From Corallium rubrum (taxonomy: Eukaryota > Cnidaria > Anthozoa > Scleralcyonacea > Coralliidae), in the NCBI GenBank assembly GCA_964035015.1, contig CAXIUP010000103.1:1-64000 (forward strand): DNA of 64,000 nucleotides, in the 5' to 3' direction. The notes beneath the pieces were generated by a model. The model saw nothing but the letters and a program-made list of their open reading frames with translations. It was not told where the DNA came from and ran no database searches. Numbering within the stretch: the first letter of the stretch is position 1; every line of letters starts with the position of its first letter. Positions 11,297-51,949 of this stretch are shown here, piece by piece. The translations under genes and the position numbers were made by a program.

Positions 11297-11443
11297 ATGG
11301 CGCGCAATAGAAAAGTAAAAAAAAGAAGAAAAACAAAAAGAAAACAACAAAAAGGCGGTGGGTTTGGTGCGGGTATGGCACTTGGTATGTTTTTGCCTAA
11401 GCTATTGGACACGACAAAGGGAATTCTTAAAGTTAATATTTAA
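11297..11443 (+). CDS. Small basic core-like protein with QKGG site
   Basis: 48 residues: 17 strongly basic residues, then Q-K-G-G (18-21), then a Gly/Met-rich hydrophobic stretch FGAGMALGMFLPKLL (about 23-37). A basic part joined to an amphipathic part by a protease-like site recalls adenovirus-type core and minor capsid precursors. Directly upstream of MCP. In the right arm one G is missing from the GG run and the second half is lost (41123 downwards). Confidence 0.6.
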   Translation: MARNRKVKKRRKTKRKQQKGGGFGAGMALGMFLPKLLDTTKGILKVNI

Positions 11444-11468
11444 TTTATTGTTTTTTTAAAAAAAAAAG

Positions 11469-12775
11469 GATCCCCATGATCAAGAGGTCGATCAACACGA
11501 GACATTATTTTCAAAACCTTTACAGTTGTTTAAACCAACACCTTTTAACGATCTTTTTACGGAAAATCGTGTCGATGTGGTCCACCCTATCCCCAATACA
11601 CCTTATTGAGACGCGTACACATTTAAACGACAGGGGAATAATGTCGGATTAATAAAAACAAGCGAAGCGAGAATGTACGGGAAAATATCACTTCCAGATG
11701 GAGCTGGTGCTCTTCAGACAAACGCTAACTTTGTAGTGCCACCCTTTCCTTTCCGTACTATGTGGTCCTCTGCGCAATTGAAGATTAATGAGTGTTTAAT
11801 TACGCCTGTTAGTAATTTTAATTATTTTGCAGCGTATATAAAAATTCTCACACGTGAAACGCCAAAAATGTATAAAGATTCACCGCAAGTAAATTGCGGT
11901 TATTTTGATACCGCTGGTCGCATGGATACCGTTCAAGGGCTTAACGTGGGTGCGGCAAGTAGATATCTTCTTACAAACGATATAGATGCGGTACAACTTA
12001 TTGATAAAATTGATCTACCGTGTTTTAGGAATCGGGTGGCGAAGTTTTCTTACCGTCAGCTTTCAAACTGGAACTAAAATATGTAAGAGCAGCCTACCCG
12101 CTCCTTTTCACAGGTGCGAATCACGAGGATGCAGCCTTTGCTGTTATGAGAATGTCGTTAGAAGATCTACATCTAAGAATACCTGTTTATAAACCAAAAG
12201 ATCAGTTGAGCAACGCTTTAAATACAGCGTTTGTCACTGATTCGCAAGAAGCGCGATATTATTCGACAACATTCCGCACGGTAATGTCGGCAGTAGCTGG
12301 TGCTCGAAGATCGCATATAGAAAACGATGTATTTAATGGTTCATGTCCTGTTCATTTATTTATCGTGTACGTGAGACGTACCAATTTTGCCGGCACTATG
12401 GGTACGAACGTGTTTCGTTTCAGATGGGAGAACTATTCAAATGTAAACGTCACAGTAAATAGCGTGTCTATTGGGACAATAAAAAATTCAATTGAAGCAT
12501 ACGAGCAATTACGTACTGTTCTTAATAGAAATCATTCCGAAATGCCAATGACTTATGCTGCTTCTATAACGGGATATGCGGTTTTAGCTTTCGATTTAAC
12601 TACAAATTCCGACACACATTTGAAAGTGTTACCTAACCGCCCCAGCGGTGTTGTCAACGTACATATGGATTTCTCAGACGATACTAATGCGGGAAACATT
12701 TTCTTTATTGGTGAATTTCGTAATGAAATAAAAGTTGGTATGAAAACGCCTGCACGTATGTTATACGACGTATAA
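11469..12775 (+). pseudogene. MCP: Major capsid protein (double jelly roll), broken
   Basis: Hexon-like MCP of Polintons. Coding sequence is readable in one frame from about 11469. An in-frame TGA at 11607-11609, shared by both arms, cuts the N-terminus, so the longest ORF begins at 11673. A one-base loss in a G run near 12031 then changes frame; the remainder ends at 12775. Recognisable features are the PIPNTPY strand near the start, NFVVPPFPFRTMW (about 19-31 of the 11673 ORF) and a C-terminal half rich in strands ending in VGMKTPARMLY. The right copy is continuous across 12031 but broken elsewhere. Confidence 0.7.
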
Positions 12776-12822
12776 ATTTTTGAGAAAACAAAAACATTAC
12801 TCACAACCCTTTAATTCTCACC

Positions 12823-12957
12823 ATGGGAAAAGCTAACGGGAATTCACAAAAAAAAAAAAAAAATTAAAACTATACGTGCAGGAAATATAATTGATAAAGA
12901 AACACATTTAAATAAAGGACATATTATAGTTCAACCAGCAGCGTCGAAATTTGCTTA
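12823..12957 (+). pseudogene. Small basic ORF broken in a poly-A run
   Basis: The ATG at 12823 opens a Lys-rich start. After an A15 run the reading frame ends quickly, but in a neighbouring frame coding-like sequence continues to the stop at 12957. The same run is present in the right arm (about 39470-39600). Not recognised. Confidence 0.35.
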
Positions 12958-12963
12958 AAAAAA

Positions 12964-14172
12964 ATGGAAGAAGAAGAAGAAGAAGAAGAAGAAGAAGAAG
13001 AAGAAGAAGAAGAAGAAGAAGAAGAAGAAGAAGAAGAAGAAGAAGAAGAAGAAGAAGAAGAAGAAGAAGAAGAAGAAGAAGAAGAAGAAGAAGAAGAAGA
13101 AGAAGAAGAAGAAGAAGAAGAAGAAGAAGAAGAAGAAGAAGAAGAAGAAGAAGAAGAAGAAGAAGAAGAAGAAGAAGAAGAAGAAGAAGAAGAAGAAGAA
13201 GAAGAAGAAGAAGAAGAAGAAGAAGAAGAAGAAGAAGAAGAAGAAGAAGAAGAAGAAGAAGAAGAAGAAGAAGAAGAAGAAGAAGAAGAAGAAGAAGAAG
13301 AAGAAGAAGAAGAAGAAGAAGAAGAAGAAGAAGAAGAAGAAGAAGAAGAAGAAGAAGAAGAAGAAGAAGAAGAAGAAGAAGAAGAAGAAGAAGAAGAAGA
13401 AGAAGAAGAAGAAGAAGAAGAAGAAGAAGAAGAAGAAGAAGAAGAAGAAGAAGAAGAAGAAGAAGAAGAAGAAGAAGAAGAAGAAGAAGAAGAAGAAGAA
13501 GAAGAAGAAGAAGAAGAAGAAGAAGAAGAAGAAGAAGAAGAAGAAGAAGAAGAAGAAGAAGAAGAAGAAGAAGAAGAAGAAGAAGAAGAAGAAGAAGAAG
13601 AAGAAGAAGAAGAAGAAGAAGAAGAAGAAGAAGAAGAAGAAGAAGAAGAAGAAGAAGAAGAAGAAGAAGAAGAAGAAGAAGAAGAAGAAGAAGAAGAAGA
13701 AGAAGAAGAAGAAGAAGAAGAAGAAGAAGAAGAAGAAGAAGAAGAAGAAGAAGAAGAAGAAGAAGAAGAAGAAGAAGAAGAAGAAGAAGAAGAAGAAGAA
13801 GAAGAAGAAGAAGAAGAAGAAGAAGAAGAAGAAGAAGAAGAAGAAGAAGAAGAAGAAGAAGAAGAAGAAGAAGAAGAAGAAGAAGAAGAAGAAGAAGAAG
13901 AAGAAGAAGAAGAAGAAGAAGAAGAAGAAGAAGAAGAAGAAGAAGAAGAAGAAGAAGAAGAAGAAGAAGAAGAAGAAGAAGAAGAAGAAGAAGAAGAAGA
14001 AGAAGAAGAAGAAGAATATAATGAAAAAAAAAATAAAATAGAAAAAGACGAATCATCTGATTTTTCAGAAAATGAGTTTACGTCTGAAAGTGAAGATGAT
14101 GATGATGAAAATGAGGCTGGTGTGTTAAAATCATTAATATTATACCACCAGCTTATGAAAAAAAAAAAATAA
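12964..14172 (+). CDS. Poly-glutamate ORF with acidic tail
   Basis: 402 codons: ATG followed by 350 uninterrupted GAA codons (12967-14016), then about 50 residues rich in Lys, Ser, Asp and Glu. The tail has normal codon mix and reappears in the right arm, so a short acidic protein probably existed before repeat expansion. Acidic proteins can act as histone- or core-protein-binding chaperones, but that is only a guess here. Whether this length is translated is unknown. Confidence 0.5.
   Translation: MEEEEEEEEEEEEEEEEEEEEEEEEEEEEEEEEEEEEEEEEEEEEEEEEEEEEEEEEEEEEEEEEEEEEEEEEEEEEEEEEEEEEEEEEEEEEEEEEEEEEEEEEEEEEEEEEEEEEEEEEEEEEEEEEEEEEEEEEEEEEEEEEEEEEEEEEEEEEEEEEEEEEEEEEEEEEEEEEEEEEEEEEEEEEEEEEEEEEEEEEEEEEEEEEEEEEEEEEEEEEEEEEEEEEEEEEEEEEEEEEEEEEEEEEEEEEEEEEEEEEEEEEEEEEEEEEEEEEEEEEEEEEEEEEEEEEEEEEEEEEEEEEEEEEEEEEEEEEEEEEEEEEEEEEEEEEEEEEEEEEEEEEEEEEEEYNEKKNKIEKDESSDFSENEFTSESEDDDDENEAGVLKSLILYHQLMKKKK
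12967..14016 (+). repeat. Perfect (GAA)350 microsatellite
   Basis: 1050 bases of pure GAA without one interruption. Such GAA/TTC tracts can form triplex DNA. The right-arm equivalent (about 38446-39467) is similar in length but carries many TTTC-type interruptions. Confidence 0.98.
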
Positions 14173-14222
14173 AAAAATAAAAAAAATTCATCCCTTCGGT
14201 TAAAGAATTTTTTAAAGTAAAT

Positions 14223-14468
14223 ATGGTTAAAAAACACCAGCTATACGATGAAAATTTAAAAAAAAAAATATTACTTTTAGCCAAAAATATCGTGGAAAAA
14301 AGAATTCCGATAAAATGCAGCGACGACTATTTATATATACTTAAAAAAATGACGTGTAAAAAAATTAATTCACATGATCTTAAGATCATGATATGCGAGG
14401 ATCATTGTCTCAGCATTGTATTTGAAAGAGCGCTTAAATTTTTAAGTAAAATTGAAAAAGAAAAATGA
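14223..14468 (+). CDS. Hypothetical Lys/Leu/Ile-rich protein, 81 aa
   Basis: Not recognised. Predicted helical and basic, with three Cys near residues 32, 45 and 58. The stop overlaps the next start (ATGA 14465-14468). A perfect 18-bp palindrome lies inside the gene (14373-14390). The right arm holds a frameshifted copy (about 38000-38241). Confidence 0.5.
   Translation: MVKKHQLYDENLKKKILLLAKNIVEKRIPIKCSDDYLYILKKMTCKKINSHDLKIMICEDHCLSIVFERALKFLSKIEKEK
14373..14390. repeat. 18-bp perfect palindrome
   Basis: CATGATCTTAAGATCATG, fully self-complementary, inside the 14223 gene and preserved even in the degraded right arm (38080-38097). Could be a protein-binding site or chance. Confidence 0.5.
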
Positions 14469-14962: not shown

Positions 14963-15209
14963 CATCATTAAGAACACTGTATTGAGAAAACACTACACTA
15001 CAAAACATTACGAGAGCGGCGATACAGCGAGCATTGCAGCAAGTTCAGGAACAACAAGTTCAACAGACGACGATCCTCTCAATTACGATTTCTATGTACC
15101 AGGAGAAAAAAGAAAAAAAAAACGTATAGCGACGCCGATGATAAACCACAGAGTTTTAGTTACTCACGTCAAAAAGCTCGTGGTAGAAAATATTCTTTTT
15201 AAAAAATGA
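14952..15209 (+). CDS. Hypothetical basic protein, 85 aa
   Basis: Not recognised. Begins 11 bases before the previous stop and its own stop overlaps the protease start (ATGA 15206-15209). Ser/Thr/Asp-rich middle (about 24-42) and a basic EKRKKKR cluster (about 52-58). The right copy is degraded (37291-37537). Confidence 0.5.
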   Translation: MPASIIKNTVLRKHYTTKHYESGDTASIAASSGTTSSTDDDPLNYDFYVPGEKRKKKRIATPMINHRVLVTHVKKLVVENILFKK

Positions 15210-15808
15210 CGGGTAAAAAAAAAAGTAAATTCATATGTTTTTTAAAACGTTTTCTGTACACTAACGAAATTGAAAAGCTAGCGTCTGAAAATGTTATATT
15301 AAAAAAAATTTTTTTGGGGGCTTTTCCGGCGGACGTGTTTCCTAAAAATATAACAGAAAATTGTTGCTGGATATGGAATACGGACGAAAGTGATTCTGGC
15401 GGCCGCCATTGGATAGCTATTTGGTTGAGTGGTGATAAAATGTATTTTTTCGATAGTTTTGCAAAGTCAGTCGATTTTTACCGTCGCGATTATTGGTTGA
15501 AATATGCGAAAAAACAACAAAAGAAATTTATTTATGTGCAGAAACAACCATTACAATCAAAAATAACGTATACTTGTGGTTATTGGTCCTTATTATATTT
15601 ATACGAAAAAAGCAAAAACATAGAAAATGCAGGTAAATGGTGGAAATGGAAAAACAGTAAAATCAAAATAAAAAACGAAATGAATTTAAAAAAAAAAAAA
15701 GATTTTAGATTTGGTAATATTATCGATAAATTAATATTTAAAAAATGTAAAAGTAAAGAAGAAAATCAACAATGTTGTCGTAATTTTAATGAGTCTTTTA
15801 TTAAATAA
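15206..15808 (+). CDS. PRO: Adenain-like cysteine protease (family C5)
   Basis: 200 residues, close to adenovirus protease length. The catalytic layout is visible: His68 in GGRHWIAIW, acidic partner Asp83 in FFDSF, Gln117 in LQSKI and Cys124 in TCGYW. Adenains process capsid and core precursors at Q/M/I/L-x-G-G or x-G-x-G sites; several proteins of this element carry Q-x-G-G or Q-x-G-x-G. The Lys-rich tail (about 140-200) is longer and less regular than in the family. The gene runs convergently into the core-protein gene 12 bp away. The right-arm copy is heavily degraded (36740-37294). Confidence 0.85.
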   Translation: MTGKKKSKFICFLKRFLYTNEIEKLASENVILKKIFLGAFPADVFPKNITENCCWIWNTDESDSGGRHWIAIWLSGDKMYFFDSFAKSVDFYRRDYWLKYAKKQQKKFIYVQKQPLQSKITYTCGYWSLLYLYEKSKNIENAGKWWKWKNSKIKIKNEMNLKKKKDFRFGNIIDKLIFKKCKSKEENQQCCRNFNESFIK

Positions 15809-15820: not shown

Positions 15821-16189
15821 TCACATTAACCCAGCAATCATAGCTGCTAATTGTAAAAAACCTCCTTTTTGGTTTGTTTTTTTTCCTCTTTGCCTTTTTT
15901 TCATTCCATCTCCTCTTTGTCTTTTTTTCAAACCATTTCCTCTTTGTCTTTTTTTCAGTCCATTTCCTCTTTGTCTTTTTTTCAATCCATCTCCTCTTTG
16001 TCTTTTTTTCAAATCTCTCTGTTTTTTACCACCCAATTGACCTTTTTTGTTTGCTTCCATACCCGCCTCTATAAGACCCTTAAAGGGAAACCACCCTCCG
16101 GCGATACCCGCGCCATATTGAGGAATTCCTAAGAAATTCTTACGCATTCCGGGCGCGTAAACAGTTGTCCCGCCGGTTTGTTTAGACAT
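15821..16189 (-). CDS. Repeat-containing basic core precursor with eight QxGG/QxGxG sites
   Basis: 122 residues. Q-x-G-G at 4-7, 51-54 and 107-110; Q-Y-G-A-G at 24-28; and four of the 9-residue (L/M)KKRQRG(D/N)G units with Q-R-G-x-G at 64-68, 73-77, 82-86 and 91-95, followed by a fifth imperfect unit. Between the first sites is a Gly/Phe-rich hydrophobic stretch (about 19-45); the C-terminus is hydrophobic (111-122). This looks like a precursor combining a membrane-active pVI-like part with pX/mu-like basic peptides. It lies tail to tail with the protease that would cut it. Assignment to pVI or pX is inference. Confidence 0.75.
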   Translation of the reverse strand: MSKQTGGTTVYAPGMRKNFLGIPQYGAGIAGGWFPFKGLIEAGMEANKKGQLGGKKQRDLKKRQRGDGLKKRQRGNGLKKRQRGNGLKKRQRGDGMKKRQRGKKTNQKGGFLQLAAMIAGLM

Positions 16190-16221: not shown

Positions 16222-16362
16222 CTAACGTTTACGATACAGCTCCCTAGGAGTGAGTGATTTTGGCATGAATATACTAAAAATACCCCCTTTTTGTCCTTTT
16301 TTTTTTTGGTTTTTTAACTTTTTAATAAATCTCGTTCTTCTTCCTTTTTTTTTTCTACCCAT
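16222..16362 (-). pseudogene. Small basic QKGG protein, frame-broken
   Basis: The ATG at 16362-16360 overlaps the stop of the upstream gene as TAATG, then a Lys/Arg-rich start runs into A9 and A11 runs where the frame breaks. Downstream in another frame is a G-Q-K-G-G site followed by a hydrophobic and then basic end closing at a TAG near 16222. The design matches the other small basic proteins. Confidence 0.45.
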
Positions 16363-16532
16363 TACCAGTTTGGGTTATACAGAATTTTACCAACCGTTCG
16401 TTTCCGCGGTTTGACACGACCACCCCTTTGTTTTTTTTTCGTACGGTATAAATATTCCAGTTGATTCGTTTGTTTCGCGCGAGAAGGGTCGTAAAAACCC
16501 CCTAATTGACGGCGTTGTTTTCGCCTCCGCAT
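16362..16532 (-). CDS. Small basic protein with QLGG and QRGG sites
   Basis: 56 residues, Arg/Lys/Gln-rich, with Q-L-G-G at 9-12 and Q-R-G-G at 35-38. The start at 16532 is chosen because the upstream extension is hydrophobic and not conserved. Candidate core/DNA-condensing protein cut by the element protease. The right copy is degraded (36300-36427) but retains the ATG and the C-terminal 14 residues. Confidence 0.65.
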   Translation of the reverse strand: MRRRKQRRQLGGFYDPSRAKQTNQLEYLYRTKKKQRGGRVKPRKRTVGKILYNPNW

Positions 16533-16603: not shown

Positions 16604-17242
16604 TTACACATTATAAATTAATGTATTTTCACCGGGAAATATATTAGTGCGTACGCGTGTATTTTCATAGCTATTTGCCGCGTTATCAAATAATAAATAA
16701 CCATACGGGTCTTTATTTACATCATCTAAAATAGCTGTGAATACTTCACGATTAATTTGTTTATTGTCGGCAATAGTATACATATTTCTAACATCGGCTA
16801 AATTTTTAAACATTAAATGATATTGACTATTGACACGTGAGTTCCGTAATTTACCATCACCGTACATCAAATTTTGACACACAAAAATAACACTAATATT
16901 TTTATGGTGTGCGTCACGACATGCAAAGTTATTCAAATTAATTAAAATTTTTTTCGAAGAAGCAGCAACAGTCATAAGATCGTCTAAAACTACTAAAGTA
17001 TTATCGTTTAAACTAGTTTGCAAGTCAGTTGCTTTTGGTATCCCTTTAGTACACTCGATAAATTCAATTTCCAGATTTTTTTCTTTTCCCACGCGTTCGA
17101 TCTCACTGTACAGTGGTTGATAAGATGTGTATAGAAACAAAACCTTATCGATTGAAGGTGTGATCATGACCTCGATGGATTGTAATAATTTGTAAAGCCA
17201 AAATGTTTTACCACACTGCGACGGGCCGCATAATGTTAACAT
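16604..17242 (-). CDS. ATPase: FtsK/HerA-type DNA packaging ATPase
   Basis: 212 residues. Walker A GPSQCGKT at 6-13, Walker B LVVLDD at 83-88, a VCQN sensor-type strand at 121-124 and Arg residues at 133/136 in position for an arginine finger. This is the A32-like packaging motor of Polintons and relatives, which pumps genome into capsids. The frame stays open upstream into the PolB end with conserved-looking residues before Walker A, but no ATG is available there. Lies just downstream of PolB on the same strand. Confidence 0.85.
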   Translation of the reverse strand: MLTLCGPSQCGKTFWLYKLLQSIEVMITPSIDKVLFLYTSYQPLYSEIERVGKEKNLEIEFIECTKGIPKATDLQTSLNDNTLVVLDDLMTVAASSKKILINLNNFACRDAHHKNISVIFVCQNLMYGDGKLRNSRVNSQYHLMFKNLADVRNMYTIADNKQINREVFTAILDDVNKDPYGYLLFDNAANSYENTRVRTNIFPGENTLIYNV

Positions 17243-20412: not shown

Positions 20413-21831
20413 ATGGATAGTGACACTGAATATCATAACGAAAGCGAATTTTACTATCCCGAAGTAACGGTGGAAGATATTATATGCGAAAAAGAAAACG
20501 TCCAGCGAAGTGGCAACATCACACAAGACGACTTGAATGAAATTCAACATTTTATTGAAGAACAACGACCTGAAAGCACAGTTAAGAAGACTACCTACGA
20601 TATTAATGTGTGGAGCCGCTTCTGTGGTACAATAAAGGAAGAAAGAAATTTAGAAGAAATACCTGCAACTGAACTAAATGTCCTCTTGTGTCGGTTTTTC
20701 ATGACCATAACAAAGAAAGACGGCAGTGTTTACGAGCCCGTGTCTCTTACCTCTTTCCAGCGCAGTGTTCAACGATATCTCAATGATACCAACTCTTCCT
20801 TGAACATTTTTAAGGACCAAGAGTTTGCCAAGTCGAGAGAAGTCCTTGTCGCTAGAAAGCGGCAGTTAGTTGAGAAGTTCGCGAAAGGAAATCGCCCGCA
20901 AGCAGCCAGAGCATTAACCGAAGCTGAAGAAGATTTACTTTTTGAAAAAGGTCTGTTCGGAGACCACGAGCCAGAGGTACTGCAAAGAACCGTTTGGTGG
21001 GCATTGTCGCTTCATTTTGGTTTCAGAGCTCGAGACGAGTCGAGAAAACTCAAGTGGGGAGATATTGGCCTAGATATCGATCCAGAAACTGGCAATGAAG
21101 TCGTTGTGTGGAGAGCTGAGCGAGGTTCTAAAACAAGACACGGTGATGGTCACCAAAGAGCGTTTTTCCCAACTGCACAAGCTACCAATAACCATCGTTG
21201 TCCTGTAAATCTGTACAAGGCTTTCGCCAGTCACCGACCAGAAGCAGCAAAAACCCCGGAGTCATCATTCTTTCTGGCAGTGAACCATAGACGGCGACCA
21301 GGATCGGAAATATGGTATAGCAAAGGCGCTTTGGGAAAAAACTCCATCGGTAAATTTCTTGTCAACGCCGCCAAAGCTGCTGGTCTCCCAGGCAACATAA
21401 GTAATCACTCTGTCCGGAAAACCTGTATATCCCGCCTCATGGATGCCGAAATTCCTTGCAATTATGTAGCTCAATTGAGTGGGCACAAAAATCTAAAAAG
21501 TCTCGATGCTTACAAAGCGGCTTCAGTTATCCACCAGCGCAAGATGTCAAACGTCCTGAGTCGGTCAACGTCGACGATTGCAAGCAAACATGGCCTCACA
21601 GTATCGCAACAACGTCCCCAGCTGAATCAACCCAGCAGCACAACGTCAGTAAATGCTCAAGCATCAGCGACAACCACAGCAACAGGCTTGTTTTCTGGAG
21701 CAAAAATTGGCAAGTTTGAAGGATGTACTTTCAATTTCAACTTCGCTTCAACTAGTTCTGGCGACACATCGAGTGAGGAGCCGACAAAGAGAAGGCGCTT
21801 GTCTATCCTTGAAGATTCCGATACAGATTGA
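20413..21831 (+). CDS. Crypton tyrosine recombinase
   Basis: 472 residues. An N-terminal SAM-like DNA-binding domain (about 40-150) is followed by a tyrosine recombinase catalytic domain. Candidate catalytic residues are an Arg at 205 or 207 in HFGFRARDE, His332 and Arg335 in NHSVRK, His358 in LSGHKN and the nucleophile Tyr367 in DAYKAAS. The family (DUF3504-like, related to domesticated KCTD1/ZMYM recombinase-like domains) moves elements by site-specific recombination without long terminal repeats. The tail (about 385-472) is Ser/Thr/Gln-rich with a CTFNFNF motif common in this family. The ORF is intact, suggesting recent insertion. Confidence 0.9.
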   Translation: MDSDTEYHNESEFYYPEVTVEDIICEKENVQRSGNITQDDLNEIQHFIEEQRPESTVKKTTYDINVWSRFCGTIKEERNLEEIPATELNVLLCRFFMTITKKDGSVYEPVSLTSFQRSVQRYLNDTNSSLNIFKDQEFAKSREVLVARKRQLVEKFAKGNRPQAARALTEAEEDLLFEKGLFGDHEPEVLQRTVWWALSLHFGFRARDESRKLKWGDIGLDIDPETGNEVVVWRAERGSKTRHGDGHQRAFFPTAQATNNHRCPVNLYKAFASHRPEAAKTPESSFFLAVNHRRRPGSEIWYSKGALGKNSIGKFLVNAAKAAGLPGNISNHSVRKTCISRLMDAEIPCNYVAQLSGHKNLKSLDAYKAASVIHQRKMSNVLSRSTSTIASKHGLTVSQQRPQLNQPSSTTSVNAQASATTTATGLFSGAKIGKFEGCTFNFNFASTSSGDTSSEEPTKRRRLSILEDSDTD

Positions 21832-22289: not shown

Positions 22290-22437
22290 ATGTTATTTAC
22301 CGGCCTTGCTCGGTCCGGATAGGGAAAAACTGTGCCCTCGGTCTTGAAAATGGCTCTCGGCCTTCGGCCTCGAGCCGTGTTCAAGACCTCGGGCACAGTT
22401 TTTCCCTATCCGGACCTCGCGGCCGGTAAATAACATA
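22290..22437. repeat. 148-bp composite palindrome at Crypton right end
   Basis: The sequence from TATGTTATTTACCGGCC to GGCCGGTAAATAACATA is a nested palindrome. Inner arms are GGTCCGGATAGGGAAAAAC with its complement and a central CTCGGCC/GGCCGAG hairpin. It could fold into a long cruciform and may hold the recombination site. Confidence 0.85.
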
Positions 22438-23034
22438 TATATCTTTACGTTCGTGATTTAAGTAATAATTCATGCATTTAACGCAAAATTTGCTTGGTGG
22501 TAACTTCGAAAACTTAACCATACTTAAAACAACATCGTAATGTTTATTATTTAACCACAAACAAACAATATCGTTGGTTAACTTAATTAAATTACCTTCT
22601 TTATCGCACCGCGAATCATACACTATGTCGTTATCAAATTGATCCGAATATACTACTAAGTCAACACCCTGCTGTTTAAGAAAATTCTGATAAACACTAT
22701 CGTAATGTTTTGATCCCACACAACATCCTTCAACTATACCGCATTTGTCATAAATACTACGAACCTCGTCAATAGTGTACAGTGTATCGACAGCTGTGTG
22801 TGGGGATCTTTCCATTTGCACATACCGCGTGTCTTTTTTTAACCACGATAACCCCACTAATAAACTAACTACGAAGCAACAATTTTTAATGATTTTGTTT
22901 AACCCATCGCACACAGTGTAAAAAACACCCATCCGTTGATCGCGACCGTATTTTTCCACATTTTTACCCCCGCCACCCTCATCATCATCGCCACCCCCAG
23001 CACCTAATTGCCGATATATTTTTTTTTTACCCAA
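22438..23034 (-). pseudogene. PolB: PolB N-terminal segment 2, cut by the Crypton
   Basis: About 198 codons (opening with TTG, not a credible start) that continue PolB from the 23539 fragment after an A10 run frame break present in both arms. Contains Q-L-G-A-G (about residues 8-12) followed by an Asp/Gly-rich linker, then the layout I associate with Polinton PolB N-termini: an N-K-I-x-K-N-CC stretch, a CG..EG.C segment and a FCVKCMNYYLNHE zinc-type motif at the end. An ORF runs on to 22381 but its last 19 residues come from the Crypton. The right copy is 31191-31790. Confidence 0.75.
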
Positions 23035-23038
23035 TTGT

Positions 23039-23539
23039 TTATATTTTTTTTTTATTTTTACTATACGTGTGTGGAAAAGTTTGAATTACAACACTTGTTT
23101 CCCACCCATCAGCGATCAACGTGCGGTTGCTTTGCATCATTTTTTCAAAAATATTTAGTAAGAAGTTGACGTCAAAATCTTTAAGTCGGAGAACAGCGGT
23201 TGAAAAATAAGATTTTGGTGCGTGTGAAAAAATAAAACGCACATAATCATTCTCTGAACTTGTAGAGGCTCGAGCTACATTCAGTAAGTACGTAAACACT
23301 ACACGTAACGATTGAATAAAGGCGATAAAATTCATACCCGATTTTCGCGCAATCGATACGTGTAATGTTTTTTGAGAAAATTTAAATTTTTCATTATGGG
23401 ATGACTCGATAATATTAGTTTTAAAGTCTTCTTCTCCCCTTTTTCCATCATCTTTTCCTTTTTTTCTGCGTTTTTCTAATAACTCCCTTATTTCACTCAC
23501 ATCTTCATTTGTAAACACATAGGGGTTTTTTTCAGCCAT
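23039..23539 (-). CDS. PolB: PolB N-terminal segment 1 (possible terminal-protein-like domain)
   Basis: 166 residues. The ATG at 23539 sits in an ATGGCTGA overlap with the preceding small gene. Charged N-terminus (about 1-45), then a helical region resembling the N-terminal part of Polinton PolB proteins (a block around 70-100 and an M-QSNRTLIADGWE stretch near 137-148). It ends in a Lys-rich tail at an A10 run; beyond it another frame carries the rest of PolB. The right copy (30686-31186) has 4 or so substitutions. It could be a separate protein. Confidence 0.6.
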   Translation of the reverse strand: MAEKNPYVFTNEDVSEIRELLEKRRKKGKDDGKRGEEDFKTNIIESSHNEKFKFSQKTLHVSIARKSGMNFIAFIQSLRVVFTYLLNVARASTSSENDYVRFIFSHAPKSYFSTAVLRLKDFDVNFLLNIFEKMMQSNRTLIADGWETSVVIQTFPHTYSKNKKKI

Positions 23540-24145: not shown

Positions 24146-24712
24146 ATGGTTAAACAAGGGGTAAGTAGAGGAGGTCGAACAATGAGTTTAATTTCACAAA
24201 ATGTACGAGCTGTTTTACGATGTCGAAGCTTCACGTTAAAAAGAAAACGATGTCGAAAAAGAACAGCACACACGCATAAATGTTGGATACATCTAGCAAA
24301 AGAAGATAACTTACGTGTTAAAAAATCACGGATTCCAAACGCTGGCAAAGGGTTGTACGCTTGGAAAAAACCTTTTAGACGCGCCACTAACATCGCTGCG
24401 TACACAGGTCAAAGAACCACAGTAAAACAAATGGATCGAAAATATGGTCGTAAAACAATTGCACAATATAGCTTATGTGATGGTCCCCGCCACTGCGTCG
24501 ATGCTTATAAATCGACCGATGGGGCGGCCCGATTTTGTAACGATGCAAAAGGATCGCGGTATAAAAATAACGCTTGTTTTACAGGAACAACAAAATACAA
24601 TAATCATTTTAAATTACATGCAACCGCAGCTATAAAACCCCATCAGGAAATTTTTGCCGACTACGGTGACGAGTACTGGCCGCGTGGATACTTTAAAAAA
24701 ACACGAAAATGA
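24146..24712 (+). CDS. SET-domain lysine methyltransferase
   Basis: 188 residues. A basic N-terminus with C-x9-C-x9-C-x2-H (26-49) precedes a compact SET domain. Visible SET motifs are NAGKGLYA (65-72, SAM-binding GxG type), ARFCND (128-133, position of the RFxNH motif, with Asp in place of His), NNHF (152-155) and EIFADYGDEYW (168-178, with the DYG and YW of the catalytic end). Such enzymes methylate lysines on histones or other proteins with SAM. Viral versions such as chlorovirus vSET modify host histones, so chromatin targeting is plausible. The start is overlapped by nothing; the stop is ATGA-coupled to the next basic gene. The right copy is frameshifted near its N-terminus. Confidence 0.85.
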   Translation: MVKQGVSRGGRTMSLISQNVRAVLRCRSFTLKRKRCRKRTAHTHKCWIHLAKEDNLRVKKSRIPNAGKGLYAWKKPFRRATNIAAYTGQRTTVKQMDRKYGRKTIAQYSLCDGPRHCVDAYKSTDGAARFCNDAKGSRYKNNACFTGTTKYNNHFKLHATAAIKPHQEIFADYGDEYWPRGYFKKTRK

Positions 24713-24963
24713 GTAGAAACCGGAGAAACACGGGATTTCGAGGAAAAAAAAGACAAAGCGGTGGTAAAAAAATTCAAAAAGTAATAAAAATTATGAAAGA
24801 TTTTGAATCCGCCAAAAAAAAAATTATAAGAAAAATAAAAAACGGTACGGTTAAAGTGAAAAAATTTTAAAAAAAACAATTTGGTGGATTGGTACAACCG
24901 GATGTAGACACATATCAGCAATTTGGTGGAAGAATGTCGCCTAAAAAATATTATTTACAATAA
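24709..24963 (+). pseudogene. Small basic protein with three QxGG sites, frameshifted
   Basis: Left copy of the intact 84-residue protein at 29266-29520. Here the frame stops in an A/T run near 24870. It keeps Q-S-G-G near residue 16 and, in the other frame, both Q-F-G-G sites. The start overlaps the SET gene stop (ATGA 24709-24712), so methyltransferase and putative core protein share a transcript. Confidence 0.6.
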
Positions 24964-27046: not shown

Positions 27047-27200
27047 TTGAGATTTCCTGAAGTATCACCCGATAATTTTTCCAATTCACCAATTCACCGT
27101 CTTTTTTCCCTTTTAAAGCGTACTCTGTAATAGCTTGCTGCACGCTCTTATAACTAATTATATATATTTTTGTTTGCTCTCTTAAATCACGCATTTTTTT
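27023..27200. other. Unique spacer at palindrome centre
   Basis: 178 bp present once, separating the two arms. It holds the start of the zinc-protein gene and a small ORF. There is no sign of the opposite element terminus, so at least one end of an ancestral unit has been lost here. It ends in a T8 run against the right arm. Confidence 0.7.
27033..27194 (-). CDS. Small ORF in the palindrome loop, 53 aa
   Basis: Too short for most gene lists. ATG at 27194 right at the edge of the right arm, Lys/Ile/Gln-rich and probably helical, stop at 27033-27035 overlapping the zinc-protein start by 14 bases. The overlap fits the coupled layout of the element, so it may be the first gene of that train. Unknown function. 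Confidence 0.4.
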   Translation of the reverse strand: MRDLREQTKIYIISYKSVQQAITEYALKGKKDGELVNWKNYRVILQEISNGIL

Positions 27201-29265: not shown

Positions 29266-29520
29266 TTATTGTAAATAATATTTTTTAGGCAACATTCTTC
29301 CACCAAATTGCTGATATGTGTCTACATCCGGTTGTACCAACCCACCAAATTGTTTTTTTTTTAAATTTTTCACTTTATTCGTTCCGTTTTTTATTTTTCT
29401 TATAATTTTTTTTTTTGCGGATTCAAAATCTTTCATAATTTTTATTACTTTTTGAATTTTTTTACCACCTCTTTGTCTTTTTTTCCCTCGAAATCCCGTG
29501 TTTCTCCGGTTTCTACTCAT
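29266..29520 (-). CDS. Small basic core-like protein with three QxGG sites
   Basis: 84 residues, intact. Arg/Lys-rich start, Q-R-G-G at 16-19, a long Lys/Ile-rich helical segment (20-55), Q-F-G-G at 57-60 and 71-74 and a short Tyr-rich end. Protease cutting at these sites would release a 38-40 residue basic helix. ATGA-coupled to the SET gene. Best of the two copies. Confidence 0.7.
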   Translation of the reverse strand: MSRNRRNTGFRGKKRQRGGKKIQKVIKIMKDFESAKKKIIRKIKNGTNKVKNLKKKQFGGLVQPDVDTYQQFGGRMLPKKYYLQ

Positions 29521-30693: not shown

Positions 30694-31186
30694 AAAAAAC
30701 CCCTATGTGTTTACAAATGAAGATGTGAGTGAAATAAGGGAGTTATTAGAAAAACGCAAAAAAAAAGGAAAAGATGATGGAAAAAGGGTTGAAGAAGACT
30801 TTAAAACTAATATTATCGAGTCATCCCATAATGAAAAATTTAAATTTTCTCAAAAAACATTACACGTATCGATTGCGCGAAAATCGGGCATGAATTTTAT
30901 CGCCTTTATTCAATCGTTACGTGTAGTGTTTACGTACTTACTGAATGTAGCTCGAGCCTCTACAAGTTCAGAGAATGATTATGTGCGTTTTATTTTTTCA
31001 CACGCACCAAAATCTTATTTTTCAACCGCTGTTCTCCGACTTAAAGATTTTGACGTCAACTTCTTACTAAATATTTTTGAAAAAATGATGCAAAGCAACC
31101 GCACGTTGATCGCTGATGGGTGGGAAACAAGTGTTGTAATTCAAACTTTTCCACACACGTATAGTAAAAATAAAAAAAAAATATAA
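30686..31186 (+). CDS. PolB: PolB N-terminal segment 1, right copy
   Basis: 166 residues matching 23039-23539 with a handful of substitutions. It ends at the same A10 run and stop, so the break predates the palindrome or reflects a shared base-calling problem. Confidence 0.6.
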   Translation: MAEKNPYVFTNEDVSEIRELLEKRKKKGKDDGKRVEEDFKTNIIESSHNEKFKFSQKTLHVSIARKSGMNFIAFIQSLRVVFTYLLNVARASTSSENDYVRFIFSHAPKSYFSTAVLRLKDFDVNFLLNIFEKMMQSNRTLIADGWETSVVIQTFPHTYSKNKKKI

Positions 31187-31190
31187 ACAA

Positions 31191-31790
31191 TTGGGTAAAA
31201 AAAAAATATATCGGCAATTAGGTGCTGGGGGTGGCGATGATGATGAGGGTGGCGGAGGTAAAAATGTGGAAAAATACGGTCGCGATCAACGTATGGGTGT
31301 TTTTTACACTGTGTGCGATGGGTTAAACAAAATCATTAAAAATTGTTGTTTCGTAGTTAGTTTATTAGTGGGGTTATCGTGGTTAAAAAAAGACACGCGC
31401 TATGTGCAAATGGAAAGATCCCCACACACAGCTGTCGATACACTGTACACTATTGACGAGGTTCGTAGGATTTATGAAAAATGCGGTATAGTTGAAGGAT
31501 GTTGTGTGGGATCAAAACATTACGATAGTGTTTATCAGAATTTTCTTAAAGACCAGGGTGTTGACTTAGTAGTATATTCGGATCAATTTGATAACGACAT
31601 AGTGTATGATTCGCGGTGCGATAAAGAAGGTAATTTAATTAAGTTAACCAACGATATTGTTTGTTTGTGGTTAAATAATAAACATTACGATGTCGTTTTA
31701 AGTATGGTTAAGTTTTCGAAGTTACCACCAAGCAAATTTTGCGTTAAATGCATGAATTATTACTTAAATCACGAACGTAAAGATACGCAT
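31191..31790 (+). pseudogene. PolB: PolB N-terminal segment 2, right copy
   Basis: Matches 22438-23034, including Q-L-G-A-G and the FCVKC zinc-type motif, and here runs without the Crypton into the Cys-rich part. After about 31790 the sequence drifts and the ORF ends at 31817. It serves as the pre-insertion site for the Crypton. Confidence 0.7.
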
Positions 31791-33305
31791 ATATGTTATA
31801 CATCCATATCGTCTTAAATGAACAAACTAAATGTGTTTTCATAATTGAGTGTTCTAATTGTAATATTTTATTTTATAATAATAAATGTTTTTTAGCTCAT
31901 TTAACAAATCGTGTTTTTTCCCCCTCAAAGGTAATTACGGGAAATTAACACCGTGTAGTTACATTATTTTTTTGTACAAGATTGCGGTAAATTGTTCCCG
32001 ATTTCGTTTTTTTTCTGCGAAGAATGTGAAAAAGCATGACTGTAACAAACAGTTTTGTTACCACTGTAACGACTATAAGGATAAATCGCATTATTGTTAT
32101 ATGAAGACCGTGAAAAAAAACAAAGAAGTTGTACAACCTACTTATATTTTTTTTTTTTGAAAACGCGCGTCGATAAGAATAAATTAATTGTACCGTAATG
32201 CGTCAAAAAGTGTGCCGTAAATGTGAAAATATCGAGTTTAAAAAAAGTAAAAATTACATCTTGCGAGCGATAATATTCAACCTTGCTGTGGAAAACGATT
32301 TAATTTGTTTTGTTATACTGATTTTACTGTGAAATTTTTTGAACAAGAAAAGTTGTTTGGCTAGCGCATAATGGCGGACGATTTGACACAATTTTTATTT
32401 TTCAATATCTCATTAATGAAAAAAAATTTTCACCATAATGAATGGTTGTAAAATAATGATGTTGAAAATCCTGATAAAAAAATAACTTTTTCGATAGCTA
32501 TTCATTTTTACATATTTATCCTCCAACATGGGTCTTGGAAGAATGATGCGGGGTTTCTTCCGTATAAATTTACAGATTTATCCTATGTAGGTGTTGTATG
32601 ATTAAAATCTTGAAAATATGGAGAAGAAAAAAGTTGAATTTGAAGAATGGTATTTGAAAAAAAAAAAACAAACGGTATTTTGAATGTATTTGTGGTTGAA
32701 AGATTTCAAAAAGTATTTTGCTTGTTTAATGCGGTGAAACTTCGGGCGTCCTTTTCAGAATTCTCAACAGGTTTTACGACAAGGATTTTATTAAACGGTT
32801 AAAAATTTCAAGGAAAGTTGTTTGAGAATGTTGAACCTGCTTCAGGGTATAAAATCTGTTATGCGTCTTTCATGTAGATAAAATAAACGCAGAAAAGGAC
32901 ATTTAGTTGTTGCTACTAAATTTCTTTCTTCCAAATTTAAAAAGCACAATTTTACGGGTATTACGCCAGGTAGTTCTTCAATAAAATTTATTTTCACACT
33001 TGTGTACCGCCGCTGATACAAAATTTACACACCGTATGGAAAAAGCCGGCTATAAAGTAGTAGAAAAATGGGAGTGTGATTTTCGAGAAGAATGTAAACT
33101 TACAAGAAGTTGAAAAAAGGATTTTTTGTTTTGTTTTAAATCTCTGTTAGAAGTAAGAGATGCGCTTTACGGTGGGCGAACATCACCTGTTTGCTTGTTT
33201 AAAAACACAAACGTGAATGAAAAAATTAATTACGATGATTTCACATCTTTATACCCTTACGTTCAAAAAGCTAATAAAATTGGTCATCCGACGATTACAA
33301 GAATG
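31791..33305 (+). pseudogene. PolB: Degraded PolB, first tandem copy
   Basis: Readable only against the left copy: Cys-rich segment (31800-32160), exonuclease part with many small deletions (32160-33120) and the start of the polymerase domain with a motif A-like TSLYP stretch (33240-33260). No long frame survives. Confidence 0.7.
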
Positions 33306-40958: not shown

Positions 40959-41123
40959 TTAAAAAAACAATAAATTAAATATTAACTTTAAGAATTCCCT
41001 TTGTCGTGTCCAATAGCTTAGGCAAAAACATACCAAGTGCCATACCCGCACCAAACCCACCCCGCCTTTTTGTTGTTTTCTTTTTGTTTTTCTTCTTTTT
41101 TTTACTTTTCTATTGCGCGCCAT
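40959..41123 (-). pseudogene. Small basic QKGG protein, right copy, frameshifted
   Basis: The basic 17-residue start and Q-K-G-G remain; one G fewer after the site changes the hydrophobic half. Confidence 0.6.
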
Positions 41124-48093: not shown

Positions 48094-48136
48094 TTTTATT
48101 TTGTTTTGTTTCATGAAATATCAAGCTGCTCTTATA

Positions 48137-48325: not shown

Positions 48326-48369
48326 TTATTGACGACAATAACCAAAAATGGGTACTGGCGATATAAGTT

Positions 48370-48830
48370 ATTCTCAACCGAAAGCGGAAAAATTTATCGT
48401 TTTGGTCAAAAAAAACAAAAAACCAAAAATAAATGAAAAAATTATGGTCGGTATCGAAAGCGGAAAAAATTTTTATGATTGACAACCGAAACCGGATAAT
48501 GGTTGGAAAATTTATTCATAAAAAAATATGAGTGACAATCGAAAGCGGAATAAAAAATTATAATTGACATCCGAAACGAAAGCGGAAAAAATTTTTATGA
48601 TTGACAACCGAAACCGGAAAATGGTTGGAAAATTTATCATATTTCAAACAGGAATACGAAATTTTGCCCTTTACCCAGAATCGATAATCACTACAAATAT
48701 GTCAACAAGAATACAAAATTTCACCGTTTTCCCAGAATCAATTAAATATTACTTTTTCCCAGAACCAATTAACATTATAATTGACATCCGAAAGCGAAAA
48801 AAAAATACTAAGTGATAGATAATTTATTCA
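48370..48830. repeat. CCGCTTTCGG-type repeat cluster, right copy
   Basis: Mirror of 3630-4060 with the same units. The gap 48326-48918 holds only this cluster and flanking AT-rich sequence. Confidence 0.6.
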
Positions 48831-48918
48831 TAGTAATCGAAAGCGGTAAAACAAAATTTAATTCTTTGATCACAAGACGCATTTTTCTGTAATACAACGT
48901 TTTTATTTAATTCTTTGA

Positions 48919-49248
48919 TCACAGCACAACGCATTTTTGTAATATACCCTTTTTTTTTTTCCATATCTTCCGTGGTGTCATGTGTTGTGTGTTTACATAT
49001 TTCATATAATCACAAGTATTTCTCATTTTATCAACAAGTGTCCAATAATATATAAATTCCATTCGTGGTATTTCTGAATTATAAGATAAATTAACAGCGT
49101 CAAAAAAAATAACGTCTTCCATATAGTGAAAATAATCTTCTTCCACATAAGCTACTTTAAGATAAGTCGCGCAACATTCTTTTAACATAGGGTATATATC
49201 ATCAAATTCAATAAACTTTCGATTACTAAGTCCTCTTGAGGTCGTCAT
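48919..49248 (-). CDS. YYW-family paralog 1, right copy
   Basis: 109 residues, identical protein to the left copy; ATGA-coupled to the upstream gene. Confidence 0.6.
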   Translation of the reverse strand: MTTSRGLSNRKFIEFDDIYPMLKECCATYLKVAYVEEDYFHYMEDVIFFDAVNLSYNSEIPRMEFIYYWTLVDKMRNTCDYMKYVNTQHMTPRKIWKKKKGILQKCVVL

Positions 49249-49493
49249 TCTTTATCACCAATAATTTGCTTTAGCAATATATTTCTTCGTAAGTCCCTCA
49301 AATATTCTTTAGCAACTTTTTCACGCGCTTTTTCTCTTTCTCGCAATACAGATTCAATATGCAGCCACACGCTCGTAAGTAAATAAGGGTCACGTTCGAA
49401 ATTATTCTCCCGTAATTTCTGAATAAAAAACTCCGTCGTTTCACAAATCAATTTGTCAAGAAGCAACTTCGCGCCTTCCACACCCTCTGACAT
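49245..49493 (-). CDS. Copy of the 2942 charged helical protein
   Basis: 82 residues from the ATG at 49493, a few substitutions. A tandem duplication puts a second copy of the start region just upstream. Confidence 0.55.
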   Translation of the reverse strand: MSEGVEGAKLLLDKLICETTEFFIQKLRENNFERDPYLLTSVWLHIESVLREREKAREKVAKEYLRDLRRNILLKQIIGDKE

Positions 49494-49589
49494 CTCTCTA
49501 AGCAATAAAGCAACAAATGGGATCAAGAAGCAACTTCGCGCCTTCCACACCCTCTGACATCTCTCTAAGCAATAAAGCAACAAATGGGA
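49456..49589. repeat. 67-bp tandem duplication, right arm only
   Basis: The stretch starting TCAAGAAGCAACTTCGCG at 49456 recurs at 49523. The left arm has one unit. Confidence 0.85.
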
Positions 49590-49604
49590 TTTTTCTTTCT
49601 TTTA

Positions 49605-49814
49605 TTACAGTGATCCCAATAACGTTAACAAATAAAAAATCTCCGCAAATCCAACTAATAACACATTTCTATCAGGATAATCGCAAAGAAAAAAATAATA
49701 AAAACTTAAAAAAAATAGTTTCTCACAAACAAAGAATACAAACATATTCGTTATTCGTTCTTTTATAAGCATATACACAGCAAGTTCATTAAAATCCCTC
49801 GCGTCCCTGTTCAT
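49605..49814 (-). CDS. Small two-helix membrane protein, 69 aa
   Basis: Opens at an ATG that overlaps the stop of the upstream gene (ATGA). After a polar 25-residue start there are two hydrophobic stretches (about 27-47 and 54-69) separated by a CDYPDRN turn, fitting a hairpin membrane protein. Not recognised. Viroporin-like roles are possible but unsupported. Confidence 0.5.
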   Translation of the reverse strand: MNRDARDFNELAVYMLIKERITNMFVFFVCEKLFFLSFYYFFLCDYPDRNVLLVGFAEIFYLLTLLGSL

Positions 49815-50212
49815 TCTTTAGCGACACTCGTTACCCCTAAGTGTTCGACTTGAAAGTTCAACTTCTGGATATCGAAACCGTTTTCCTTGCACCTTTTATC
49901 CACACGGGCTTTTAAGGTAGCGTTCGCTAATTCAGTCTCTTCTTTAACAATAGTTAAAATTTCAGGAGGTGTTGGTGTTGGATTTGCGTCTTCTTCTGTT
50001 GCTTTTTCTAGGAGTTCGTTAATGCGTCGTTCTTCTCCTTTTCTTTCATACAGAGAAATGAAGCGCCACTTCTCGGGAGGTTCTCCAATTTCTGCCAACC
50101 TTTTATGAACGGTAAATGTTAATTCAGCGCTAATAATTGCCGTTTCGTCAGCCACAATCTTCTCAATAACATGTTTAAGCACACTCTGTGATAATGGTGT
50201 TATTGTTGTCAT
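49811..50212 (-). CDS. Copy of the 2291 hypothetical gene
   Basis: 133 residues, one substitution (Leu to Glu near residue 103). Confidence 0.6.
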   Translation of the reverse strand: MTTITPLSQSVLKHVIEKIVADETAIISAELTFTVHKRLAEIGEPPEKWRFISLYERKGEERRINELLEKATEEDANPTPTPPEILTIVKEETELANATLKARVDKRCKENGFDIQKLNFQVEHLGVTSVAKE

Positions 50213-50493
50213 TCTTATCCTCCCAAAAAAACAAAAACAAATATAATAAATGTTGGTGTTTGGGTCAATTGGTGGTTGGTTGGTGGGTATGCAATGCGAA
50301 CCCTCTTTATATATTCTCAACACACACAGTGAAAAAAACCAAAACCCTTATTTTTTTAAAAATATTTAAAAAATCCGTCAGTAATCAAATTATTCATACA
50401 CGAGCGGTTCAAGAACACACACACGCGACATTGCTTCATTATAAATTTCAAAAGATTTTTTTGTTTAATTAATGCACGCTGAAACCCAAAATC

Positions 50494-50997
50494 TCAATTA
50501 TAATTACACGGATAGAAATTAAATAGCTTAAGATCGTTCCAATTCGACATATAAATCACGTTATGCACATAGCTAGTATAATCGCAACGATCGAATAATT
50601 GTTGTTGGCTAAATTTAACACTACATGTCTTCACTACCGATAAACATTTCCGAATCAATGAATAGCGATGTTTCCAATGTGTTGGTGCTGGATCATCTAT
50701 CCACTGAGCCGCTTTCATCATTACCGTTGCTATTTCTCGAAGATCTCTTTCTTCGTTCGTGGGTAGAAACGTGTACATTTGTGGAAGAATGCTCAACATC
50801 CGGATTATGTCAGGTTGAAAACTAATTAAATATTCCATTAGAGTGTTAGAATTAGCATATAAATTGGTGTTAGAATTAACATCACACTTTGCCATACAAT
50901 CTTCTGTTATGCAAATTCGTGTAGAAAGACTGCTCAACAATTCATTCAACTTCTTCTCCAACTCCACTTGCTTAACCCGTTCAGGTTGAAAATTCAT
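50494..50997 (-). CDS. Copy of the 1505 hypothetical gene
   Basis: 167 residues, two or three substitutions. Confidence 0.6.
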   Translation of the reverse strand: MNFQPERVKQVELEKKLNELLSSLSTRICITEDCMAKCDVNSNTNLYANSNTLMEYLISFQPDIIRMLSILPQMYTFLPTNEERDLREIATVMMKAAQWIDDPAPTHWKHRYSLIRKCLSVVKTCSVKFSQQQLFDRCDYTSYVHNVIYMSNWNDLKLFNFYPCNYN

Positions 50998-51227
50998 TTT
51001 TTGTCATACGAAGAATATATGTTCTCGTTAAATAGTTTTCTGCAAAAAACTGTCAAAGGTTTCTTATTAATTCTCGGTAGAGATCGTAAGCACATGGAGT
51101 GTTTTCTTATAATACAACAATGAAGAGGACAGCGTATACACCATTTATAATAGTTTTCTCTCGACGACCATGTGGTGAGTAACTTCGAACAATTTTCATT
51201 CTCTACCATAACACTGTGAAGAAACAT
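50994..51227 (-). CDS. Copy of the 1275 Cys-rich protein
   Basis: 77 residues, one substitution; all Cys conserved. Confidence 0.55.
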   Translation of the reverse strand: MFLHSVMVENENCSKLLTTWSSRENYYKWCIRCPLHCCIIRKHSMCLRSLPRINKKPLTVFCRKLFNENIYSSYDKK

Positions 51228-51235
51228 TTCCCATG

Positions 51236-51577
51236 CTACTGCTGCTGCTGCTGCTGGTGCTCCTCAAAAGATTTCATATAAGAAAATATTCGCGTATTCC
51301 ACTTCGCCATAAATTGTGTATCTCTAATTTCTTCAAATTGTTTAACACCTACAGCCCAATAATGCCTCTCATAGGGTATAGTGCATTCCTCATCTGAATA
51401 TATGGGTAGAAGAACTTTACGTGACACCTCGCTATCGTCGTTTAAAAGCGGTTTACTCATCCTTATTCCTTTAACGCGTAGTTGCTCACTACCGCATATT
51501 AATAAGGGTGTTACTTCGTCGAGTATCATCACTAGGCAACCATAATACCTGTATACGGGTACGAATCGATAAGGCAT
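51236..51577 (-). CDS. Copy of the 928 polyglutamine-tailed protein
   Basis: 113 residues; a His interrupts the Gln tract, which is one residue longer. Several substitutions, frame kept. Confidence 0.6.
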   Translation of the reverse strand: MPYRFVPVYRYYGCLVMILDEVTPLLICGSEQLRVKGIRMSKPLLNDDSEVSRKVLLPIYSDEECTIPYERHYWAVGVKQFEEIRDTQFMAKWNTRIFSYMKSFEEHQQQQQQ

Positions 51578-51607
51578 TTTTTCACGTCTTGTTTAACCCA
51601 AGTCACA

Positions 51608-51721
51608 ATGCGTTATAAAAAAAAAGTTATAAAACAAAAAATTAACAAAAGGAAGAAAATATATAAAAGAAAATGTTGTGCTGGTATAAAAACGATTCAA
51701 TGTAAATTTGATTTTTGGTAA
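51608..51721 (+). CDS. Tiny lysine-rich protein, 37 aa
   Basis: Shorter than usual ORF cut-offs. Sixteen or so Lys/Arg residues, a CC pair in the middle and a C-terminus KFDFW. It points to the element end like its neighbour at 51815. Intact only in this arm. Confidence 0.4.
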   Translation: MRYKKKVIKQKINKRKKIYKRKCCAGIKTIQCKFDFW

Positions 51722-51814
51722 AAAATTAAAAAAAAAGCCAAATTCTTTTAAAAAATACTTAAATACAATTAACACAAGAATTCCTAATCACACGTTTTTT
51801 TTCTTTGTTCAAAC

Positions 51815-51949
51815 ATGGCTCTAAAAGGTAGAAAAAAACAAGACAGAAGAAAAAAATATAGAAGGAAAAAAAAATCAATTAAATTAAAGTATTCTGGAAC
51901 AAATATGCATCAAAAAGGTGGTGCACCCTGGTGGCATTTTGACTGGTGA
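51815..51949 (+). CDS. Tiny basic protein with QKGG site, 44 aa
   Basis: A basic first half (residues 4-20 mostly Lys/Arg) and Q-K-G-G at 33-36 followed by an aromatic end APWWHFDW. It fits the element-wide design of basic peptide plus QxGG site plus short hydrophobic end. The left copy is frameshifted by one base. Confidence 0.55.
   Translation: MALKGRKKQDRRKKYRRKKKSIKLKYSGTNMHQKGGAPWWHFDW

Follow-up and report, generated by a model that had tools for sequence, protein, structure and literature searches.

Do the small basic proteins of a Polinton (Maverick) carry the cleavage sites of the element's own maturation protease? The question is raised by a 64,000-nucleotide stretch of Corallium rubrum DNA (assembly GCA_964035015.1, contig CAXIUP010000103.1, positions 1 to 64,000; the whole stretch is called the window here), in which each of two inverted arms looks like a decayed Polinton. 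In its small basic proteins the initial annotation had noted a recurrent QxGG or QxGxG motif, referred to below as a Q-site, and had attributed it to an adenain-type protease with a preference for Gln four positions upstream of the cut. From the sequences of the window and its relatives we conclude that these motifs are very probably cleavage sites of the element's own adenain-like maturation protease, read as QxGG↓x and QxGx↓G, ie with Gln at P4 and Gly at P2.

Q-site genes and protease of the window

All the motif-bearing open reading frames (ORFs) named in the initial annotation were found where it had placed them. With their counterparts in the other arm and the protease, they are as follows.

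11297..11443, forward strand: small protein with a basic N-terminus, QKGG and a Gly-rich hydrophobic tail
40959..41123, reverse strand: second-arm copy of the 11297 gene; the frame diverges past QKGG
15206..15808, forward strand: adenain-like cysteine protease (maturation protease), 200 residues, with His68, Asp83, Gln117 and Cys124 at the adenain catalytic places
15821..16189, reverse strand: basic repeat protein with eight Q-sites (QTGG, QYGAG, QLGG, QRGDG, QRGNG, QRGNG, QRGDG, QKGG)
16222..16362, reverse strand: small basic protein, QKGG followed by a short hydrophobic stretch
16362..16532, reverse strand: small basic protein with QLGG and QRGG
29266..29520, reverse strand: basic protein with QRGG, QFGG and QFGG
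24709..24870, forward strand: first-arm copy of the 29266 gene, shortened by an in-frame stop
51815..51949, forward strand: small basic protein with the end QKGG-APWWHFDW (QKGSG in some copies)
558..688, reverse strand: first-arm copy of the 51815 gene, broken (two partial matches, one with two stops)

Given the inverted duplication, 24709 and 29266, 11297 and 40959, and 51815 and approximately 558-688 represent one gene each, so that there are six distinct genes. Three motifs had been ascribed to both 24709 and 29266, which is correct for 29266 but not for 24709, where the stop leaves one (QSGG). In 15821, four of the eight motifs belong to tandem units of the form LKKRQRG[DN]G; neither the 11297 nor the 51815 gene looks like this repeat protein. 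No believable Pfam family was obtained for the small proteins scanned, and a protein search with the 15821 protein gave no match at E 0.001.

The protease has the adenain fold. It scores 22.3 bits with Pfam Peptidase_C5 (cut-off 21.3), and in a HMMER alignment to 1avp its catalytic residues fall on those of adenain. Asp83, Gln117 and Cys124 are invariant in 16 aligned sequences, and His68 is present in 14 of them (one gap, one Leu). Over 60 loci, 40 of which were kept by a filter on the His, Asp and Cys motifs, the conservation of those three residues is circular in part, and Gln117 alone is independent of the filter. The filtered protease ORFs of this lineage, family A, are 59-98% identical to the window protease, with a median of 86%.

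A frame with no ATG ahead of its motif, at 22381-23085 (reverse strand) and 31140-31817 (forward strand), contains KKIYRQLGAGGGDDDEGGGG, including QLGAG, in both arms. It directly follows the Lys-rich end of an ORF read in a different frame upstream, and is possibly a further Q-site protein or a frameshift.

Enrichment of the motif

Small basic ORFs were selected by a blind rule: ATG-initiated, in any of the six frames, 35-150 residues long and with a net charge per residue of at least 0.18 (n = 24 in the window). They were compared with shuffled proteins, and with ORFs at the same loci that are neutral or acidic. The 24 window ORFs hold 18 motifs, all in 8 of them, whereas 5000 composition-keeping shuffles average 1.23 and never exceed 6. 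Only 1 motif is found in the other 301 window ORFs of at least 30 residues, where 1.95 are expected on average (300 shuffles).

Copies were searched for in the 474-Mb host assembly that contains the window. The protease match list has at least 153 entries, one copy often being represented by several pieces, and 54 family A matches were fetched with their neighbourhoods, 40 from the upper list and 14 more which are mostly diverged. The basic ORFs of these copies contain 354 motifs in 152 ORFs (shuffled mean 24.1, maximum 40; 200 shuffles), and the 148 ORFs with a charge below 0.10 contain 2, against 0.75 expected. The enrichment over shuffled proteins that had been proposed is thus clear at both scales, and together with the low-charge ORFs it leads us to reject chance or composition as the main cause.

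That nearly every small basic protein has the motif, as first claimed, is true of the plausible genes but not of the ORFs taken by the blind rule, 16 of which are motif-free; many of these 16 are antisense or overlapping frames. The claim that P4 is always Gln was likewise too strong. Gln occupies P4 at 18 of the 26 xxGG or xxGxG sites in the 24 basic ORFs, far above its 4.6% share of their residues, but at 8 there is another residue; some of these overlap a Q-site and one is IAGG in 15821. Relatives with the same protease and no motif, which by the initial annotation would refute its reading, were looked for among the 54 protease-bearing copies. At least one motif is present in 49. The five that have none are L032, which is cut off by a contig end, and L052, L054, L057 and L061, which are diverged.

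Conservation of the sites across genomic copies

The host assembly holds many copies of the window genes, and the evolution of the motif can therefore be followed. For 11297, 29266 and 51815, 20 loci each were picked by hand from 93, 104 and 47 matches, respectively, those for 11297 being the most diverged ones. Conformity to the site was counted in alignments made with the motif masked and over readable loci only; non-conforming rows were counted although many look like alignment slips or decayed frames. Site 1 of 15821 conforms in 40 of 47 readable loci (Gln in 40/40), 16362 site 1 in 36 of 45 (35 with Gln) and 16362 site 2 in 42 of 51 (40 with Gln), the unread loci being 10/55, 4/55 and 8/55, respectively. 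The single site of 11297 conforms in 19/22 loci, that of 51815 in 19/20, 29266 site 2 in 16/18 (2/20 unread) and 29266 site 3 in 17/20, in each case always with Gln. When loci were anchored, 11297 had Gln in 19 of 21.

The codons at 15821 site 1, which could be anchored on its flank in 44 of 55 loci, are the most informative. P4 is Gln in 43 of the 44 (CAA in 36, CAG in 7), P2 is Gly in all 44 and P1 is Gly in 43, with all four GGN codons used at each of the two Gly positions, and P3 may be K, S, T, R, A, I or N. Synonymous codon change at a fixed P4 Gln and P2 Gly, next to a drifting P3, establishes that these protein letters are held by selection. Site 1 of 16362 is less informative, since its Gln is always CAA (40) and its P3 is Leu in 41/41.

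A diverged sub-lineage (L051, L053, L056, L058 and L060) has a quite different small protein, TNQRGGFLGLLSLLPALLGGG..., beside the protease, with the same Gln sites; in its longer ORFs TNQRGGFLGLLSLLPALLGGG... is followed by HQKGGRIF...RQTGRGY.

Glycine at P1 or P1'

Site 2 of 16362 reads QRGG↓R in the window as well as in four other loci, and QRGS↓G in 30. Rarer forms are QKGS↓G (two loci), QKGY↓G (one) and QKGR↓G (one). In the rows with Gly at P2, Gly occurs at P1 or P1' in 42 of 43, compared to 37.8 expected for independent columns (0 of 5000 permutations), and for 51815, which is QKGG↓A in 16 loci and QKGS↓G in 3, the figures are 19 of 19 and 16.5 (9 of 5000 permutations); as the copies are related, these permutation counts overstate independence and are not probabilities, which tempers their weight. 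The swap was seen at four separate sites, including 11297, with a single QKGV↓G, and the first site of a second lineage (family B, below), which is QQGx↓G, but QQGG↓S in L066. The alignments establish that Gly is required at P1 or at P1', not at both. With Gly also at P2 this is the site rule of adenain, exceptions apart, and on the form of the site the initial annotation was right. The Gln preference and the coevolution with the protease that it also suggested are hypothetical; no Polinton lineage with a different P4 rule turned up for comparison.

RGG- or RG-box-like motifs, in which Gly and Arg bind nucleic acid and the Gln is incidental, would also be at home in basic proteins. The 15821 repeat reads KKRQRGGV in many copies, and Arg is the usual P3 at 16362 site 2. 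At the other family A sites, however, P3 is mainly K, L or F, or is mixed (S, T, A, I, N), and in family B it is Q, L/M/I, M/V or T. The fixed residue is Gln, for which an RGG box has no need, and such a box does not account for the either/or requirement for Gly. Arg is the main residue before the Gly pair only at 16362 site 2, 29266 site 1 and the 15821 repeat, and the RGG box was rejected as the main cause; we regard it as an unlikely explanation.

A second Polinton lineage

Six loci (L063-L068) contain another Polinton-type element, family B, whose protease is 28% identical to that of the window and scores 22.9 bits with Peptidase_C5. A protein encoded between its penton-like and capsid genes carries QQGRG, QMGYG, QMGYG and QTGSG in most loci (QQGG, QKGYG and QSGAG in L066), and a second basic protein, beside the ATPase, carries QKGG (QEGEG in L066). 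In family B, 24 basic ORFs account for 24 motifs, where shuffling gives 1.4 (maximum 6); in its 124 ORFs with a charge below 0.10 there is 1, against 1.9. By position alone, the first protein can be likened to that at the PW position of vertebrate Mavericks, between the minor and major capsid genes, and the second to that at the PM position, between the ATPase and the next gene (PMC8097293, available text).

The PW-position protein has 269 database homologues. In the 120 of these that were listed and analysed, which form 33 groups by a crude word-sharing rule, Gln is present at the four sites in 110/112, 101/110, 119/119 and 116/119 aligned rows, and Met replaces it at the second in 8/110. Counting every xxGG or xxGxG in the 120, P4 is Gln in 431 cases, Gly in 236 and another residue in 29, the Gly cases being overlapping frames next to a Q-site. 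At sites 1 and 3 of family B the form QxGx↓G prevails almost without exception, P1 then being His, Arg, Asn, Tyr or Phe. Adenain is activated by a substrate-derived peptide that is joined to it through a disulfide (pVIc-like); most of the PW-position proteins end in DIFG, without Cys. As judged from these comparisons, the Gln code spans at least two Polinton lineages and is wider than the element in the window.

The family B sites also bear on the idea that a host SUMO-protease-like enzyme (SENP/Ulp1) reads the motifs, or that they mimic SUMO. Such enzymes share the protease fold, and SUMO tails end in QTGG, as one window site does. A diGly-specific SUMO protease should not cut QxGx↓G, however, and with a non-Gly P1 at nearly all copies of family B sites 1 and 3, and an adenain of the element's own, this explanation appears very improbable.

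Several observations weigh against the assignment of the motifs to the element's protease. Site 1 of 29266 conforms in only 9 of 20 loci (8 with Gln) in the masked alignment, where it is badly read; listed directly, it is QRGG or QRG[DN]G in 18 of 20. P4 changes occasionally, as in HLGG of L013 and HRGG of L102, and some repeat-unit joints have Gly at neither P1 nor P1' (QRGNE, QRGLK, QRGTK, QRGVK). In family B the Gly at P1' is missing from a few sequences (QQGHD, QQGRE), so that some sites are not kept. The permutation test is not telling for 11297 (1067 of 5000) and cannot discriminate at most other sites. The single capsid ORF of 436-439 residues was examined in seven copies, and while six are free of Q-sites, one holds QGGG. 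Finally, family B has adenovirus-type sites with a P4 other than Gln, namely MLGFG in the penton-like protein (5/6 loci) and LAGG in the capsid; if these are cut, Gln is not exclusive.

Relatives of the proteins outside these lineages were sought in three sets of sequences. In viral contigs, scans with the protease (single sequence and alignment), the ATPase, the penton-like protein and, from family B, the capsid and the core alignment gave none. Prokaryote genomes (one scan) and phage records (one search, with the penton-like protein as query) were equally negative.

Fusion and splitting of the modules

The 16222-type piece, QKGG-[IF]xxxFMP, and the 15821-type piece, QKGG-xxVYAPG, are in one frame in 22 of the 44 copies examined. 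In 17 the two occur separately, and of these L012, L013 and L015 look like fused forms with a frameshift break; one or both patterns are missing in 5. Modules of the type QLGG-F[YF]D are duplicated in L024, L038 and L048, and joined to others in L039. Since the protease would separate joined modules again, the small genes could fuse, split or be duplicated at the sites without harm.

A rival account is ancestry or repeat expansion alone, the small proteins having been duplicated from one another and the motif kept without selection. Duplication and fusion of modules between genes did occur, and the tandem units of 15821 make up four of its motifs. We consider this a highly improbable account of the motif, for it does not explain synonymous codon change around a fixed Gln and Gly, the P1/P1' swaps, the recurrence of the code in family B, where the proteins differ in sequence, or the motif in the 11297 and 51815 genes, which look unlike the repeat protein.

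Proposed maturation scheme and known systems

If the motifs are sites of the adenain-like protease, it would cut a set of DNA-binding precursors during particle maturation. The cuts would part Lys/Arg-rich peptides from short hydrophobic or capsid-binding pieces, an arrangement which is clear in 11297 and 16222. The LKKRQRG[DN]G repeat would be chopped to basic peptides of approximately 9 residues, by analogy with the treatment of core precursors by the adenovirus protease. We predict that Gln fits the P4 (S4) pocket of these proteases and that Met ranks next.

According to the available text of PMC4246237, the sites of the adenovirus protease (adenain, AVP; peptidase family C5) have the form (M/I/L)XGG↓X or (M/I/L)XGX↓G. 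Gln and Asn at P4 are described there as departures, and the Gln site in pTP of HAdV-E4 as probably less efficient. In the Polintons, in contrast, Gln rather than Met, Ile or Leu stands at nearly all the conserved sites, and does so in two lineages. The precursors of AVP include pVII, mu, pVI, pIIIa, pVIII, pTP and L1 52/55k; no adenovirus core family appeared among the Pfam matches (E up to 1) of the proteins scanned. The maturation proteases pS273R of African swine fever virus and I7 of poxviruses are less similar to the window protease than is adenain, and their site rules are not known to use Gln at P4.

A processing code kept across two lineages points to a maturation step under selection, as expected of a particle-making element. 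Maverick particles had not been observed to date according to PMC8097293, the available text of which calls the function of PM in vertebrate Mavericks uncertain and mentions no processing sites for PW or PM. No published report of a Gln code in Polintons was found in the accessible parts of the open-licence literature. With the code as a simple criterion, short basic core proteins that escape homology searches can be recognised. It also hints at a function for genes located where PW and PM lie, and makes the specificity of adenain amenable to peptide assays.

A broader scheme can be put forward tentatively, although we doubt that it will hold in full. Polintons as a group may mature via a Gln-P4 'Q-x-G' code unlike that of adenovirus, which would mark the PW- and PM-position proteins as core precursors cut in the particle. 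In the window lineage the core might then consist of peptides delimited by Q-sites, an open and modular set that is shuffled among genes, with a conserved acidic poly-Glu or poly-Asp protein (below) as polyanion activator of the protease or chaperone of the basic precursors.

Architecture of the window

The window is largely an inverted duplication. Positions 1-27026 match 52501-27197 at approximately 97-99% identity across most of the length, giving two near-perfectly inverted Polinton arms within 1-52501 and an axis near 27112. Weaker and shorter matches between the arms occur at about 16-20 kb, and the differences include many gaps (202 gap letters and 136 mismatches in the longest match). 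The arrangement may be a real tail-to-tail duplication or an assembly artefact; several other genomic copies seem single, judged from gene coordinates.

The first arm has Pfam matches to DNA_pol_B_2 (2.2e-22), Pox_A32 (1e-8) and Peptidase_C5 (0.00012), so that a type B DNA polymerase, a packaging ATPase and an adenain-like protease, the set that marks a Polinton/Maverick, occur together. For an RVE integrase one frame was scanned, ORF 9028-9432, which has no Pfam match at E 0.1. The assignment of a capsid and a penton gene in the arms is inferred from length and order. The other features are as follows.

11673..12775, forward strand: probable major capsid protein, split in two frames, assigned by length and gene order (no believable Pfam match)
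12964..14172, forward strand: acidic protein with a long poly-Glu tract, between the capsid gene and the protease; not a Q-site protein
16604..17242, reverse strand: packaging ATPase, A32-like, of the virion-assembly gene set (Pfam Pox_A32, as above)
20413-21831: tyrosine-recombinase gene (Pfam DUF3504/QRICH1/phage integrase), an extra gene of the first arm only

The recombinase, which we take to be Crypton-like, had no counterpart in the second arm when the arms were compared. A SET-domain protein at 24146-24712 (Pfam SET 1.1e-5) is also carried by the element and adjoins the 24709 basic gene.

Acidic neighbour protein

In adenovirus, poly-Glu can substitute for DNA as cofactor of the protease (PMC4246237, available text). 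The acidic protein might by this token activate the protease, or else hold the basic precursors. Its poly-Glu tract in the window comprises approximately 350 Glu residues. Several copies (L129-L143) have an acidic ORF between the capsid gene and the protease, with a middle of poly-Glu, poly-Asp or Lys-Glu, and in several the C-terminus is like VLKSLILYHQLLKK. The long ORF over the repeat in L129 is Lys-rich, ie the frames over such repeats differ among copies. In L138 the acidic ORF is 565 residues long with a net charge of -0.93 per residue, and L143 has a compact acidic form.

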